Part shown: positions 5,841 through 43,879 of the stretch, one piece after another | Layout of the letters: each line of letters begins with the position of its first letter | Numbering within the stretch: the stretch's first letter is position 1 | Assembly (NCBI RefSeq): GCF_014204915.1 | Contig: NZ_JACHMH010000001.1 | Span: 3,369,001-3,433,000 of the forward strand | DNA: 64,000 bases | Direction of reading: 5' to 3' | Source of the DNA: Crossiella cryophila | Lineage (GTDB): Bacteria; Actinomycetota; Actinomycetes; Mycobacteriales; Pseudonocardiaceae | Notes under the pieces: generated by a model | Told to the model about the DNA's origin: nothing | The model's input: only the letters and a program-made list of their open reading frames with translations | Database searches by the model: none | Made by a program: the position numbers and the translations under genes

Positions 5841-5962
5841 CGAAGATCAAAAGACACAGGCGTCCTCGCCGGACGGGCAGAAATCAAAGGATGGGGAAAC
5901 CGCTCGGGAGGTGTTTGAAAAGCCACCCGGCTGCTTGTTCTCCGGGCTTCGCCCGCCCGCTT
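5841..5962 (+). repeat. Dispersed intergenic element, copy 1
   Basis: This gene-free stretch contains, in order, GCGAAGATCAA, GCGTCCTCGCCGGACGGGCA, AATCAAAGGATGGGG, ACCGCTC, TTTGAAAAGCCACCC, GGCTGC and a CGGGCTTCGCCCG hairpin (5943-5955). The same blocks occur in the same order, on the opposite strand, at 41.6-41.9 kb. The TTGAAAA/CCACCC part also recurs near 21.77 kb. It precedes a 22-bp repeat array. No coding capacity is evident. Confidence 0.8.
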
Positions 5963-5973
5963 CCGCCGCCCAC

Positions 5974-6199
5974 AACGGCCAACACACCGTCCCAGAACGG
6001 CCAACACGCCGCCAGGGCTTGAAAACCTCCCCGCGTGTTGGCCGTTGTTGTACGCCGTGTTGGCCGTTCTCGTACCTCACGTTGGCCGTTCTGGGACGCT
6101 GCATCACCAGCCGGGCCCACCTCGTGTACGACAACCGCCAACATGGCGTACAAGAACGGCCAACACGGCGTACGAGAACGGCCAACACGCCGGGTGGGG
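5974..6199. repeat. 22-bp repeat array A (2 forward, 3 reverse, 3 forward)
   Basis: Units begin AACGGCCAAC and end GTACGAG or a variant. Forward units start at 5974 and 5996; inverted copies have TTGG at 6038, 6060 and 6082; forward units resume at 6133, 6155 and 6177. Spacing inside each block is exactly 22 bp. With the element at 5841-5962 it fills the 423-bp gap between the TetR gene and the SCO6045-like gene. No gene is seen in the gap. Confidence 0.9.
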
Positions 6200-6208
6200 G
6201 TGGGTGGG

Positions 6209-6553
6209 CTAGGGGCGGCGGCGGGGCCACCAGCGGGGGCGGGGTTTGGGGAGGTGGCCGGATTGGGTCAGCCAGTCGGCGAAGGTGTTGGCGTCGGTTC
6301 GGGCGCCTACGCCCTCGTGGCGGGGGTGGGTGGTGGCGTATTCGTCGAAGAGGGGGCGGAAGCGGGGGCCCAGGTGTTCGGGGAGGTCTGGGCGTAGGGC
6401 GGCGGTTACGCGGCGGCGTTTCGCGCGTAGGGCAAGGGTTTGGGCCTGTAGGCGGGTGGGGTCGAAGCCTGGGGGTGGGGGGCCGTCGGCCAGGAGGGCT
6501 TGCAGGAGTTCGGCTTGGGCTTTGGCCAGGCGGGTGCGGTCCGGGGTGGTCAT
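6209..6553 (-). CDS. Small SCO6045-like partner protein of the MNIO enzyme
   Basis: A 114-residue soluble protein whose ATG overlaps the stop of the DUF692 gene (ATGA), so it is made together with it. It has a helical N-terminal part ([19 protein letters not shown], then [23 protein letters not shown]). A second half follows with [26 protein letters not shown] and [14 protein letters not shown], resembling the C-terminal domain described in SCO6045-like proteins that accompany DUF692 genes. In characterised MNIO systems a partner protein recruits the substrate; this could be that partner. That role is inferred from position only. Confidence 0.7.
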
Positions 6554-7365
6554 CGGGGGGTCTCGACCACCGCTCGGATGGCGGACAGTTCCGCGGCGAG
6601 TTCGGCGTCCGGGGGGTAGGCGTCGTCGCGTTCGAGTAGGACGCCTGGTGGGGTTACTCGCGCGCACAGGTCGGCGAGGAGGTCCAGGACTTCCTGGGGG
6701 ACGGCGTGGGCGTGGGTGTCGTGGTAGAGGCCGTGTTCGGTGTTGCCGCCCGCCACGTGCACGTAGGCCAGGCGTTCCAGCGGCAGGGTGGTGAGGAATT
6801 CCTCGGGGTCGGTGCCCAGGTTGAGGTTGTTGGCGTGCAGGTTGGCCACGTCGACCAGGAGGTGGCAGCCGGTTCGGTCGGCCAGCTCGGTGAGGAACTG
6901 GGCTTCGGTGAACTCGTTGTCAGGCCAGGAGATCAGGGCCGCGACGTTCTCCAGCGCCAGCGGGACCGGGAGGTCCTGCTGGGCGGCTTTGACGTTGGCG
7001 CACAGCACGTTGAGCGCGTCCCTGGTACGCGGGACGGGCATCAGGTGACCTGCTTCCAGGCCGCCCGCGCGGACGAAGGCGACGTGGTCGCTGACCAGCG
7101 GGGCGCCCAGGCGTTCGGCCACCTCGGCCAGGTGGCGGACCCGGTCGGGGACGACCGGGTCCGCGCCGCCAAGGGACAGCGTGACCGCGTGTGGGAGGAC
7201 CGGGATTCCCCTGGCGCGCAGGATCTCCAGCGACTCGGGGAGGGTGGGGCCGGACAGGTTCTCGGCCACCACCTCCACGAAGTCCACCTGCGGCAGGCGT
7301 TCGACGGTCAGGTCGATCTCCGGGCGCCAGCCGATGCCGACGCCCAGCCGCGGGATCGTGCTCAT
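6550..7365 (-). CDS. DUF692 / MNIO-family iron enzyme
   Basis: A 271-residue TIM-barrel protein of the DUF692 (multinuclear non-haem iron oxidase) family, whose studied members (MbnB, TglH) oxidatively modify cysteines of ribosomal peptides. Probable metal-ligand blocks in order: [48 protein letters not shown] and [12 protein letters not shown] at 7365 overlaps the stop of the upstream Cys-tailed membrane protein and is chosen over an Arg-rich extension. The downstream SCO6045-like gene overlaps by 4 nt. The substrate is likely the Cys/Gly tails of the three upstream proteins (inference). Confidence 0.9.
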
Positions 7366-8237
7366 CCGCCGCAACCCCCGCCGCCGCCGCCCCCACCGCC
7401 GCCACCGCAACCGCCGCCGCCACCGGAGCAGCCGCCACCGCCACCGCCGCCCCCACCGCCGCCGTCGGTGGCCAGGCCCGAGGCCACGGTCGAGTCCGGG
7501 TGGCTGCTCATTCCGCTCAGCGCGACCAGGAGCACCACGTCAGCGGCCACGAATCCGCCTGCCGTGACGCCTGCCGCCTTGCGCCGGTAGGCGCCGGAGC
7601 GGGCGTTGTACAGCGTGCGCTGGCCCAGCGTGGTGGCCCTCGGTCCCGGCACCAGCGTGATGACCAGTGCCAGCACCGTGGTCAGCGCCAGCAGGACGAT
7701 CAGGATCGCGATCGGCTTGCCGCCGCTGGCCCCGTCGGACAACCGCAGCGCGCCGATCAGCCCGATCGGCAGGAACACCATGGCCGCGGCCAGCCGGCAC
7801 GCGCGGGAGCGTTCCGGGGCCACCAGCAGGTGCCCCCTGGTCAGCCGCTGCCGCATCTCGTGCAGCTCCGGGGACTGCTCGAGCACCCGGACGGCGCCCT
7901 CGACGCCGACCCTGGTCCGGCGGTCGCGCACCTCGGCGAGCACTCGTGCGTCCATTGTGGACTCGGCGGGCTTGCCGGTGGCCGTTGGCGGGGTGCCGCG
8001 GCTGACCCGCAGCATGTCGCCTGCGACCAGCCGGGCCAGTGCCGTCTCCACCAGCCTGCGGGTGCCGCCGGCGAGATAGGCCATCTCGTCCGCGCTCAGC
8101 AGCGGCAGGTTCGGGTGACCGGGCGGGAGCTTGCGCGCGGCCAGCCTGCGGCGGATCGCCACCGCGACGGTGATGATCAGCGCCAGTACGTAGAGTCCGA
8201 TGAATTCCGGGCCGGTGAGGCCCCAGGTGTTGTGCAT
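7362..8237 (-). CDS. TIGR04222-like membrane protein with poly-Gly/Cys tail (no. 1)
   Basis: A 291-residue protein. It opens with [12 protein letters not shown], shared by all three paralogues, and has a first membrane helix (about 10-28). A cytosolic-looking middle contains [12 protein letters not shown]. Two central helices (about 150-200) and one near 235-250 follow. It ends in about 40 residues that are almost all glycine with three cysteines, finishing GGCGG. The start is ATG at 8237 with GGGGG upstream. The stop overlaps the MNIO start, the tightest coupling in the cluster. The tail coding DNA is a run of GGX-type triplets. Function unknown; the tail looks like a modification substrate. 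Confidence 0.85.
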
Positions 8238-8274
8238 TGCGCCACCCCCAGGGTGCCGTGGTGATGTAACGGGA

Positions 8275-9207
8275 TCAGCCCCCGCAGCCGCCTCCGCCGC
8301 CGCCCCCACCGCTGTCGCTGGAGGAGGAGGAACAGGAGGAGCTGCTGGAACCGGTGGAACAGGACGAGGAACCGCTGGAACTGCTCGAACCGCCGGAGGA
8401 GCCGCTGAACCAGCCGCCGGAGCCCGCGGTCGGCATGGCCAGCGCCTGGCTGACGTCCTCGTCCGGGAACGCCGCCACGCCGCCGACCGCGACCAGGAAC
8501 GCCGCCGCGCTGCCCACCAGGACCAGGTCGCCCTGATCGGTCGTGGTCGAGCGCTGCCGGATCCGGCCGCTGAGCTTCTTCAAGGTCTCCGCGCCGGTGA
8601 AGGTGAGCCTCGCCCCAGGCCACCACAGCGCCAGCCCGGCCAGCAGCACGGTCACCGTCAGCAGCAGCGTCAGGTAGCCGACCGGTTTGCCACTCGCGTT
8701 GCCCGCGGAGTGCCGGGCCACGCCGATCATGAACAGCACCCCGAAGGTGGCGGCGCCGATCACCTTGCCCACCCGCTGACTTCCCTGCGGCACCACCAGT
8801 CCCAGGGAGATCAGCCGGTTGCGTACCTGCCCGACCAGCTTGTGGTTCTTGTACTTATCCCGCAGCCAGCGCAACCGGGTGGTGCCGGTGTGCGAGCGGT
8901 TCAGCATGGCCACGATCTCCCGGTCCAGCGGGTGCTGCGGGAGCACTCTGGTGACGGTGAGCGTGCCGTCCCTGGAAGCACGCACCATGTTGTGCTCCAG
9001 CATCCTGGCCACCGCGGCGAGCACCACCTGGGCGCCACCGCCTGCCAGGTAGGCGATGTCGTCCGGACTGAGCCGCCCCACCGGTGGACCGTGCCGGCCG
9101 CGCCGGCTGGACCGGCGCGCCCAGACGGCCACCACGATCGAGACGAGCATCCCCGCCCCGTACAGGAGCAGGAACTGCGGGCCGGTCAGGCCCCAGGTCT
9201 CGGTCAT
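8275..9207 (-). CDS. TIGR04222-like membrane protein with Ser/Cys tail (no. 2)
   Basis: A 310-residue paralogue starting MTETWGLTGPQF. It has a membrane helix at about 12-30, the shared LSPDDIAYLAGG motif, two central hydrophobic helices (around 165-215) and another near 240-260. The C-terminal ~45 residues are mostly serine with several cysteines, ending in a glycine run and GCGG. So the backbone composition of the tail differs from its neighbours while the Cys placement is kept. It lies 37 nt upstream of copy 1 and 43 nt downstream of copy 3, in one minus-strand operon. Confidence 0.85.
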   Translation of the reverse strand: MTETWGLTGPQFLLLYGAGMLVSIVVAVWARRSSRRGRHGPPVGRLSPDDIAYLAGGGAQVVLAAVARMLEHNMVRASRDGTLTVTRVLPQHPLDREIVAMLNRSHTGTTRLRWLRDKYKNHKLVGQVRNRLISLGLVVPQGSQRVGKVIGAATFGVLFMIGVARHSAGNASGKPVGYLTLLLTVTVLLAGLALWWPGARLTFTGAETLKKLSGRIRQRSTTTDQGDLVLVGSAAAFLVAVGGVAAFPDEDVSQALAMPTAGSGGWFSGSSGGSSSSSGSSSCSTGSSSSSCSSSSSDSGGGGGGGGCGG

Positions 9208-9250
9208 ACCCCCACCTCGCGTCGCTCTTGGTTGGGGCGACGGTAGCGCG

Positions 9251-10183
9251 TCAGCCGCCGCCACCGCCGCCGCAACCACCCCCGCCCCCACCACAGCCGC
9301 CGCCCCCGCCGACCGCACCGCCACCGTCTCCGGCACCGCCACCACCGGCGGAATAGCCGCCGGCGTAGCCCCCGGCCAGGTAACCGGTGTCGCTGAGGCC
9401 CCGGGAGCGGCGACCGCCCCTGGTTCCGTGCACCTGCTGCTGCGCCGAATGACCGAGCAGCGCCGAACGCACTCGCGCGTCCGGATAGGCCGCGATGCCG
9501 TCCCTGGCCACGTGTTCGGCCGCACTGTCCGAAGTGGACTTCAGCGCCCGCTCGACCGCGGCGTCACCCGCCTGGGTGCGCCAGGCCACCGGCAGCCAGG
9601 CGGCGAAGCCGGCCAGCACACCGGTCAGCACCAGCAACAGCATCACGTAGCCGACCGGGAAGTCCCGGCTGGCGCCGTCGATCGCCCGCATCACGCCGAG
9701 CAGGCCGAGTGCGATCAGCGGCAGCGCCGAGCGCAAACCCATGCCGCGCAACCGATCCGGCGGCACCAGCAGTCCGCGGTCGACCAGCCGGGCACCCACG
9801 TCGGTGACCGCCTGACTCTCCGCGACCCGGTGCACCAGCAACCGCAGGGTGCCGCGACCGGTGTCCCCGGTGTACTCGCGCACCTGCCGGGCCACCGGGT
9901 CCTTCAACAGCAGTGGACCGGTGCCGCTGACAAAACCGCCCCTGGCGGCCCGCAGCGCCTCCCGCTCCAGCAACCCCGCCACCGTGGTCTCCACCGCGCG
10001 CGACGAGCCCCCGACCAGGTAACCGAGTTCGACCGTGGTCAACTCGGTCACCTGTGTGGTGGCGTGGGCGTCCGGTCGCCTCCCCGCGATCCGGATCCAC
10101 CCGGCCAGCACCAGCGCCACCGCCAGTCCGACGGCGTACAGCTGCAAGAACTCCGGGCCGGTCAGTCCCCATGGATTGTCCAT
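9251..10183 (-). CDS. TIGR04222-like membrane protein with Gly/Cys tail (no. 3)
   Basis: The first gene of the operon, 310 residues, starting [12 protein letters not shown] after AGAGGGGG. It shares the N-terminal helix (about 12-30), the LTTVELGYLVGG motif and the central pair of helices (about 150-205). The last ~50 residues include GGYAGGYSAGGGG and end in glycine runs holding two cysteines, without the terminal CGG of the other two. The conserved WGLTGP-F start, shared architecture and Cys-bearing tails suggest three substrates or subunits served by one MNIO enzyme. Function unknown. Confidence 0.85.
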   Translation of the reverse strand: MDNPWGLTGPEFLQLYAVGLAVALVLAGWIRIAGRRPDAHATTQVTELTTVELGYLVGGSSRAVETTVAGLLEREALRAARGGFVSGTGPLLLKDPVARQVREYTGDTGRGTLRLLVHRVAESQAVTDVGARLVDRGLLVPPDRLRGMGLRSALPLIALGLLGVMRAIDGASRDFPVGYVMLLLVLTGVLAGFAAWLPVAWRTQAGDAAVERALKSTSDSAAEHVARDGIAAYPDARVRSALLGHSAQQQVHGTRGGRRSRGLSDTGYLAGGYAGGYSAGGGGAGDGGGAVGGGGGCGGGGGGCGGGGGG

Positions 10184-21822: not shown

Positions 21823-21985
21823 AACAGCCAACACGCCGTACAACAACGGCCAACACACCGTACGAAAACGGCCAACACACCGGCGGGTTGAACCCCTCGC
21901 CGGCGTGTTGGCCGTTATGGACGGTGTGTTGGCCGTTCTGGGACGGTGTGTTGGCCGGAATGGGACGGCACGTTGGCTGTTGTGG
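21823..21985. repeat. 22-bp repeat array B (3 forward, 4 reverse)
   Basis: Forward units start at 21823, 21845 and 21867. Inverted units have TTGG at 21908, 21929, 21951 and 21973. The two halves face each other around CGGCGGG and CTCGCCGG, so the whole array could fold into a long hairpin. It lies just downstream of the thioesterase gene. Confidence 0.9.
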
Positions 21986-22525: not shown

Positions 22526-22592
22526 AACGGCCAACGTGCCGTACGACAACGGCCAACACTCCGTACGACAACGGCCAACACTCCGGGGGTGG
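22526..22592 (+). repeat. 22-bp repeat array C (3 forward)
   Basis: Three direct units starting at 22526, 22548 and 22570, each beginning AACGGCCAAC, in exact 22-bp phase. It lies about 30 bp upstream of the iron box of the ABC transporter operon. Confidence 0.9.
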
Positions 22593-43790: not shown

Positions 43791-43879
43791 AACGGCCAAC
43801 CTGGCGTACGACAACGGCCAACGTGGCGTACGAGAACGGCCAACACGGCGTACGAGAACGGCCAACACGGCGGGGTGGG
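43791..43879 (+). repeat. 22-bp repeat array D (4 forward)
   Basis: Direct units start at 43791, 43813, 43835 and 43857, each beginning AACGGCCAAC, in exact 22-bp phase. The array fills the gap between the lipoprotein start and the ligC stop. Confidence 0.92.

Follow-up and report, generated by a model that had tools for sequence, protein, structure and literature searches.

Cysteine-tailed TIGR04222 membrane proteins in an MNIO operon of Crossiella cryophila

A 64,000-nt stretch of the Crossiella cryophila genome (hereafter the window) contains an operon of five genes, all on the minus strand, which encodes three membrane proteins of the TIGR04222 family, an enzyme of the MNIO family (DUF692, PF05114) and a small partner protein. 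The membrane proteins, here called A (9251-10183, 310 aa), B (8275-9207, 310 aa) and C (7362-8237, 291 aa), match TIGR04222 at 117.3, 109.3 and 106.2 bits (cut-off 43 bits) and have in common the motif WGLTGP-F, preceded by four residues. Protein A ends in a Gly tail with two Cys, B in a Ser/Gly tail with three and C in a Gly tail with three, the last two closing with GGGGCGG. The MNIO gene (6550-7365, 271 aa; PF05114 281.5 bits, cut-off 25 bits) overlaps that of C by 4 nt (7362-7365) and that of the partner (6209-6553, 114 aa) by another 4 nt (6550-6553). An earlier note on this DNA had described both the paralogous trio, with its shared start and Cys-bearing tails, and the two overlaps, and the family matches and coordinates bear it out. 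The best named-genome match of the window MNIO is found in Crossiella sp. SN42 (92% identity), where three corresponding paralogues all have Cys in their tails and the complete open frames contain 3, 5 and 4 Cys.

The candidate metal ligands of the MNIO (H59, H94, E139, D172, H203, D216, H218 and E245), which we take to be the metal-binding residues, are invariant in 12 aligned MNIO sequences and align with the chains of TglH (8hci, E 2e-28) and MbnB (7fc0, E 1.6e-6). Among curated NCBIfam models the MNIO comes closest to that of the bufferin maturase, BufB, although its 200 bits fall short of the cut-off of 310. The likeliest chemistry, as far as sequence can indicate, would therefore be the one by which enzymes of the BufB/TglH type act on Cys, yielding thiooxazole or oxazolone-thioamide groups that could serve as soft-metal (copper-type) ligands. 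No membrane or export feature was seen in the MNIO or its partner, and the tails should therefore be reachable in the cytosol, either permanently or before export.

The suggestion that the 114-aa gene encodes a true MNIO partner was supported by comparison of loci. An iterated profile search starting from this protein found its domain in 88 locus open reading frames (ORFs), fused to the MNIO in one frame in 44 (from 44 genomes) and beside the MNIO in the other 44; the domain is missing for two of the 90 MNIO ORFs, one in genome G237 and one, cut by a contig end, in G079. Because the domain is fused to the MNIO, we regard this as strong evidence that the two proteins work jointly. Among named genomes, where we considered the best 80 of 541 relatives of the window MNIO (spanning Pseudonocardiales, Streptosporangiales, Streptomyces and others), a partner is encoded at 76 loci (66 separate, 10 fused), and the four loci without one are near contig ends. 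The structural model of the partner is all-helical (mean pLDDT 89), and DUF2063 was weakly matched by 12 of 40 partner relatives (E up to 10, best 7.3e-4). A Foldseek search gave MbnC (7dz9_C) as the relative with the best TM-score, though not a significant one (TM 0.46, E 4.3), and a comparison with the sequences of solved structures returned nothing significant. The window protein has no DUF2063 match in a profile scan and, within an open frame of 236 residues, its domain runs to residue 217, leaving 19 residues, which sets it apart from PME-type 1 partners (DUF2063 plus RRE). From the end of the domain to the open-frame stop there are 5-74 residues in 36 separate partners, 51-69 in eight at loci with one-helix anchors (see below) and 6-117 in the 44 fusions; judged against the usual size of an RRE, a full DUF2063-RRE protein is unlikely.

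The tail cysteines closely follow the MNIO. In a class-wide sample of 394 genomes, 135 matched TIGR04222, 106 of them over cut-off, and 94 had an MNIO, the TIGR04222 counts being among the matches listed, with seven candidates scored per genome. The 109 MNIO entries included 107 that were analysed, with loci for 89. Tails were read for 133 of the 136 listed over-cut-off TIGR04222 matches, in 105 genomes; the other three (G102, G133:4159414 and G242:11171) pass the cut-off only together with their neighbours. Sixty-eight proteins qualify as Cys-tailed, with two or more Cys among Gly/Ser residues close to the C-terminus. Of these, 59 are encoded no more than 5 kb from an MNIO, eight in genomes with an MNIO elsewhere and one in G079. 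Counted per genome, 61 have both a Cys tail and an MNIO, one (G079) a Cys tail only, 17 an MNIO without a Cys tail and 26 neither (Fisher 3e-12, kinship being ignored here as in all our genome counts). The first residues of an MNIO beside the Cys-tailed gene of G079 run into the contig end (36.5 bits against our own profile), so this MNIO seems to have been cut off. The contrast recurs within family f19 (both 13, Cys only 0, MNIO only 1, neither 14; Fisher 7e-7) and also within genomes, since in those with an MNIO 59 of 79 TIGR04222 proteins near it are Cys-tailed versus eight of 25 elsewhere. In some genomes Cys-tailed TIGR04222 genes lie far from the MNIO (L315, 3923-4861; L316, 4262-5206; L126), and modification there would therefore have to act in trans. 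The tracking of tail Cys with the MNIO in 61, probably 62, of 62 class genomes supports the proposal that the enzyme is the maker and the tail its likely target.

A similar association is seen in C. cryophila's own family, where 113 of 200 genomes have TIGR04222 over cut-off, 109 an MNIO and 106 both (lists compared by reading). Tails in this sample were read in the seven genomes with TIGR04222 and no MNIO and in a few others, not in the 106 with both; five of the seven have no Cys tail and two (G495 and G487) do. Among the named genomes, Cys-tailed TIGR04222 proteins, up to four per locus, are encoded in the neighbourhood of the MNIO at 70 of the 80 loci. The other ten comprise three at contig ends and seven Streptomyces loci with a Cys-less TIGR04222 protein. 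The latter (L263, L266, L268, L272, L276, L278 and L279) are of a Streptomyces type, in which an MNIO-partner fusion accompanies the Cys-less protein; in these seven proteins the first helix has a Cys in a TAC setting.

Several of these observations weigh against a strict dependence of tail Cys on the MNIO. Both G495 and G487 have Cys tails with no MNIO found, so the expectation of the earlier note that tail Cys occur only with an MNIO stands in the class sample and apparently fails in these two genomes. In G495, of genus g142, no MNIO or partner was found in the 12 kb read and the tail keeps three Cys, and in G487 the 14.7 kb that follow one Cys-tailed gene contain no MNIO. Two other g142 genomes have the MNIO only in pieces: in G441 (L311) these lie in different frames and the TIGR04222 tail has one Cys, and in G571 (L312) the tail keeps three. 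The system may be decaying in these three genomes, or G441 and G571 may contain sequencing errors; G495 and G487 may be genuine exceptions, may have lost the MNIO recently, or may owe its absence to gaps and errors in the draft assemblies. A PF05114 search of the G079 genome gave no match, its MNIO fragment matching our own profile only, and family f20 offers no contrast (both 19, Cys only 0, MNIO only 1, neither 0). Moreover, of the 78 class genomes that encode both families, 17 have no Cys tail on the TIGR04222 proteins read, 15 of them in family f21, and the seven Streptomyces loci above likewise pair an MNIO with a Cys-less protein. Where the MNIO occurs with Cys-less TIGR04222 proteins, as in f21 and Streptomyces, it must therefore serve another use.

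Like tails are also found on other anchors. At 35 of the 89 MNIO loci examined in the class sample there is no Cys-tailed TIGR04222 neighbour, and eight of these encode instead short one-helix proteins (nine in all, here mini anchors) which bear a similar Gly/Cys tail and do not match our own TIGR04222 profile. Their genes start at about the end of the MNIO gene, before the partner, at seven loci and follow the partner at L203. Cys-tailed ORFs also occur at L197 and L198, which are counted separately from these eight. Among the remaining 25 loci, 20 are in genus g28, taken as Streptomyces by comparison; at the one closely read (L094, 1373-4811) the genes encode, in this order, an MNIO-partner fusion, a DUF4142 protein and a Cys-less TIGR04222 protein.

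The composition of the tails bears on two explanations in which their cysteines are not MNIO products. In the 67 complete Cys-type tails of the class sample, with the window's three included, Cys makes up 10.2% of residues (335 of 3277), compared with 1.5% (6 of 390) in the 13 such Gly-rich tails that MNIO-free genomes encode, where Asp makes up 12.8%; the 1.5% is the telling figure because the Cys-tailed set was selected for tail Cys. By the script rule, 13 of 19 Gly-rich tails without Cys are in MNIO-free genomes, and three Gly-rich tails with one Cys belong to MNIO genomes and are encoded away from the MNIO. Gly-rich tails whose length and Cys number vary between relatives are what chance conversion of GGC to TGC during GC-rich repeat expansion might produce, yet the scarcity of Cys in similarly Gly-rich MNIO-free tails and the GCGG end of 28 of the 67 Cys-type proteins make this very improbable. 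An artefact of low complexity was likewise rejected on the linkage to the MNIO and on tail composition. It is also unlikely, if less so, that the tail Cys are used unmodified, in direct metal or disulfide chemistry, while the MNIO acts elsewhere in the operon, on a different residue or protein, and the linkage reflects a shared pathway. MNIOs do act on Asp, Asn and Phe as well, according to two papers (PMC12452194; PMC13174530), and loci with Cys-less TIGR04222 proteins occur; what speaks against this is that tail Cys content tracks the MNIO and that like tails accompany it on other anchors. As a separate observation, the TIGR04222 Gly tails of MNIO-free G059, G283 and G384 have repeated Asp and end in GGGGD, and such tails are perhaps an acidic metal-binding counterpart.

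A modified tail could lie on either side of the membrane. Hydrophobic segments, located by a hydropathy script and not a trained predictor, number three in A, with a fourth in B and C, so the three paralogues appear to differ in topology. Display outside the membrane for metal binding or contacts, as proposed in the earlier note and as in bufferins, is a possibility to which we give appreciable, though minority, weight. On the basis of AlphaFold models and topology, Antoine et al. regarded the Cys-rich tails as periplasmic (PMC12452194). The fourth segment of B is transmembrane-like (Kyte-Doolittle (KD) hydropathy 2.32), and at KD 1.6 the 67 Cys-tailed proteins include 13 with four segments, besides 41 with three, ten with two and three with fewer. 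These segment counts and other features nevertheless lead us to favour cytosolic tails for many members. In 56 proteins with clear transmembrane segments TM1-TM3, Lys/Arg votes for an outside N-terminus and an inside post-TM3 stretch are 56/0 at TM1, 50/0 at TM2 and 49/1 at TM3, which would leave the tail inside in members with three segments. As a rule the fourth segment is short or else polar: a post-TM3 run of at least 18 residues without D, E, K, R, N, Q, H or P is found in just 11 of the 56, and in the AlphaFold2 model of C (mean pLDDT 85, tail below 50) it is a 12-residue helix. In the nine mini anchors the helix is followed by 4-8 Lys/Arg and preceded by 0-1, placing the charge on the tail side. 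Further, DUF2207_C is weakly matched by 11 of 44 TIGR04222 relatives (best E 4.5e-5). TIGR04222 is matched, at a sub-threshold 27.4 bits, by the genome's own DUF2207 protein, in which an N-terminal DUF2207 domain precedes the shared core and the start looks, on inspection, like a signal sequence. Other results point away from a cytosolic tail or from its homology support: the tail of B, with its strong fourth segment, may well be outside and that of C, whose fourth segment is borderline, may be; A, B and C have no DUF2207_C match in the profile scan; and one of ten relatives scanned singly matched it at E up to 0.1. Display outside is thus doubtful for many members and plausible for B, and the sides of the tails may differ within the operon.

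We propose that this is a protein-modification operon of the kind put forward in 2025, with a probability of roughly 0.68 for the proposal as a whole, including tails that lie at the inner face in many members. A, B and C would be membrane-anchored substrates, and the MNIO with its DUF2063-like partner would act in the cytosol to oxidise the spaced Cys in their flexible C-terminal tails. The modified residues, as thiooxazole or oxazolone-thioamide, could act as soft-metal ligands, and a tail remaining at the inner membrane face would form a tethered metal-binding brush. This brush might buffer or sense metal beside a cytosolic domain within the same protein, whose winged-helix-like nature is suggested by the helix and strand order of the C model and by weak helix-turn-helix matches in a few of the 44 relatives; a fold search with the TIGR04222 model gave no significant match. 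Scans of three flanking genes (msrB, one gene without a family and a TetR regulator) gave no clue to a metal, which counts against the metal-related part of the proposal. In a tentative and on balance doubtful extension, MNIO enzymes would make membrane-tethered tails facing the cytosol in place of secreted peptides; these would be a transferable Cys/Gly tag on TIGR04222 proteins or one-helix anchors, active at the inner membrane face, and the winged-helix-like domain of TIGR04222 would replace the RRE missing from the short partner and read the state of the tail. A recognition role for that domain is weakened as a general rule because the mini anchors do not have it.

Upstream of A lies a gene for methionine sulfoxide reductase B (msrB; SelR, PF01641; 10352-10777), homologues of which are present at 47 of the 80 named MNIO loci, on the same strand as the MNIO in all 25 shown. 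As a functional clue the neighbouring genes were set aside: msrB, though recurrent, could not be linked to the tails. Elsewhere in the window the motif GAACGGCCAACA is arrayed with a spacing of 22 nt and in both orientations (5952-6192, 21844-21938, 22547-22580 and 43834-43867), with 15 matches at up to one mismatch versus 0.31 expected.

MNIO products in the papers cited are mostly peptides, secreted or lipid-anchored. If MNIO-made tails on integral membrane proteins are real, the MNIO family would also perform ordinary protein modification, and a large actinobacterial set of TIGR04222 proteins (over 3,500 at below 90% identity according to PMC12452194), only part of which is Cys-tailed, would gain a role open to experiment. 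Compact constructs for activity work are provided by the partner, present at nearly all loci read, by its fusion to the MNIO and by the mini-anchor loci.

The earlier note put the operon forward as a candidate new modification system, but its core idea is known, since Antoine et al. proposed subsets of TIGR04222 proteins as MNIO substrates in July 2025 (PMC12452194). The clusters described there have the same three components as the window operon, and a literature search combining MNIO/DUF692 with glycine-rich and cysteine gave no match. The nature of the modification and the activity of partner-less clusters are left open in that paper. What we add is the close tracking of Cys tails with the MNIO, the generality of the partner and its fusion, the mini-anchor tails and the cytosolic-side reading. 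The link is loose in that paper, where the MNIO is missing in 490 of 1372 genomes with TIGR04222, whereas it becomes close here when Cys-tailed proteins alone are counted. Small PME-type 2 partners are given there for at least 10% of clusters, compared with a partner for nearly all MNIO ORFs here; their example, a 115-aa protein of Saccharothrix sp. NRRL B-16314 (partner model A), comes from a strain whose partner at MNIO locus L209 is 54% identical to the window's. Our prediction of cytosolic tails for many members, from the charge rule and weak homology, contradicts the periplasmic placement. The operon resembles bufferin systems (BufB/BufC) in combining an MNIO and a DUF2063-type partner that would act on Cys. 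However, according to PMC12452194, bufferins carry a Sec signal peptide and work with PME-type 1 partners, whereas the window substrates are polytopic membrane proteins with a single-domain partner, and A, B and C show no match to DUF2282, the domain of Buf1-type precursors. DUF2207 membrane proteins share a weak sequence relation of their DUF2207_C to the TIGR04222 core and differ in their extra N-terminal DUF2207 domain. The lipoproteins DybA and NedA, for which PMC12636315 reports MNIO modification that keeps pace with export, are similar in being membrane-anchored products modified before export with a suggested copper role at the membrane, but are lipid-anchored peptides, unlike the integral membrane proteins of the window operon.

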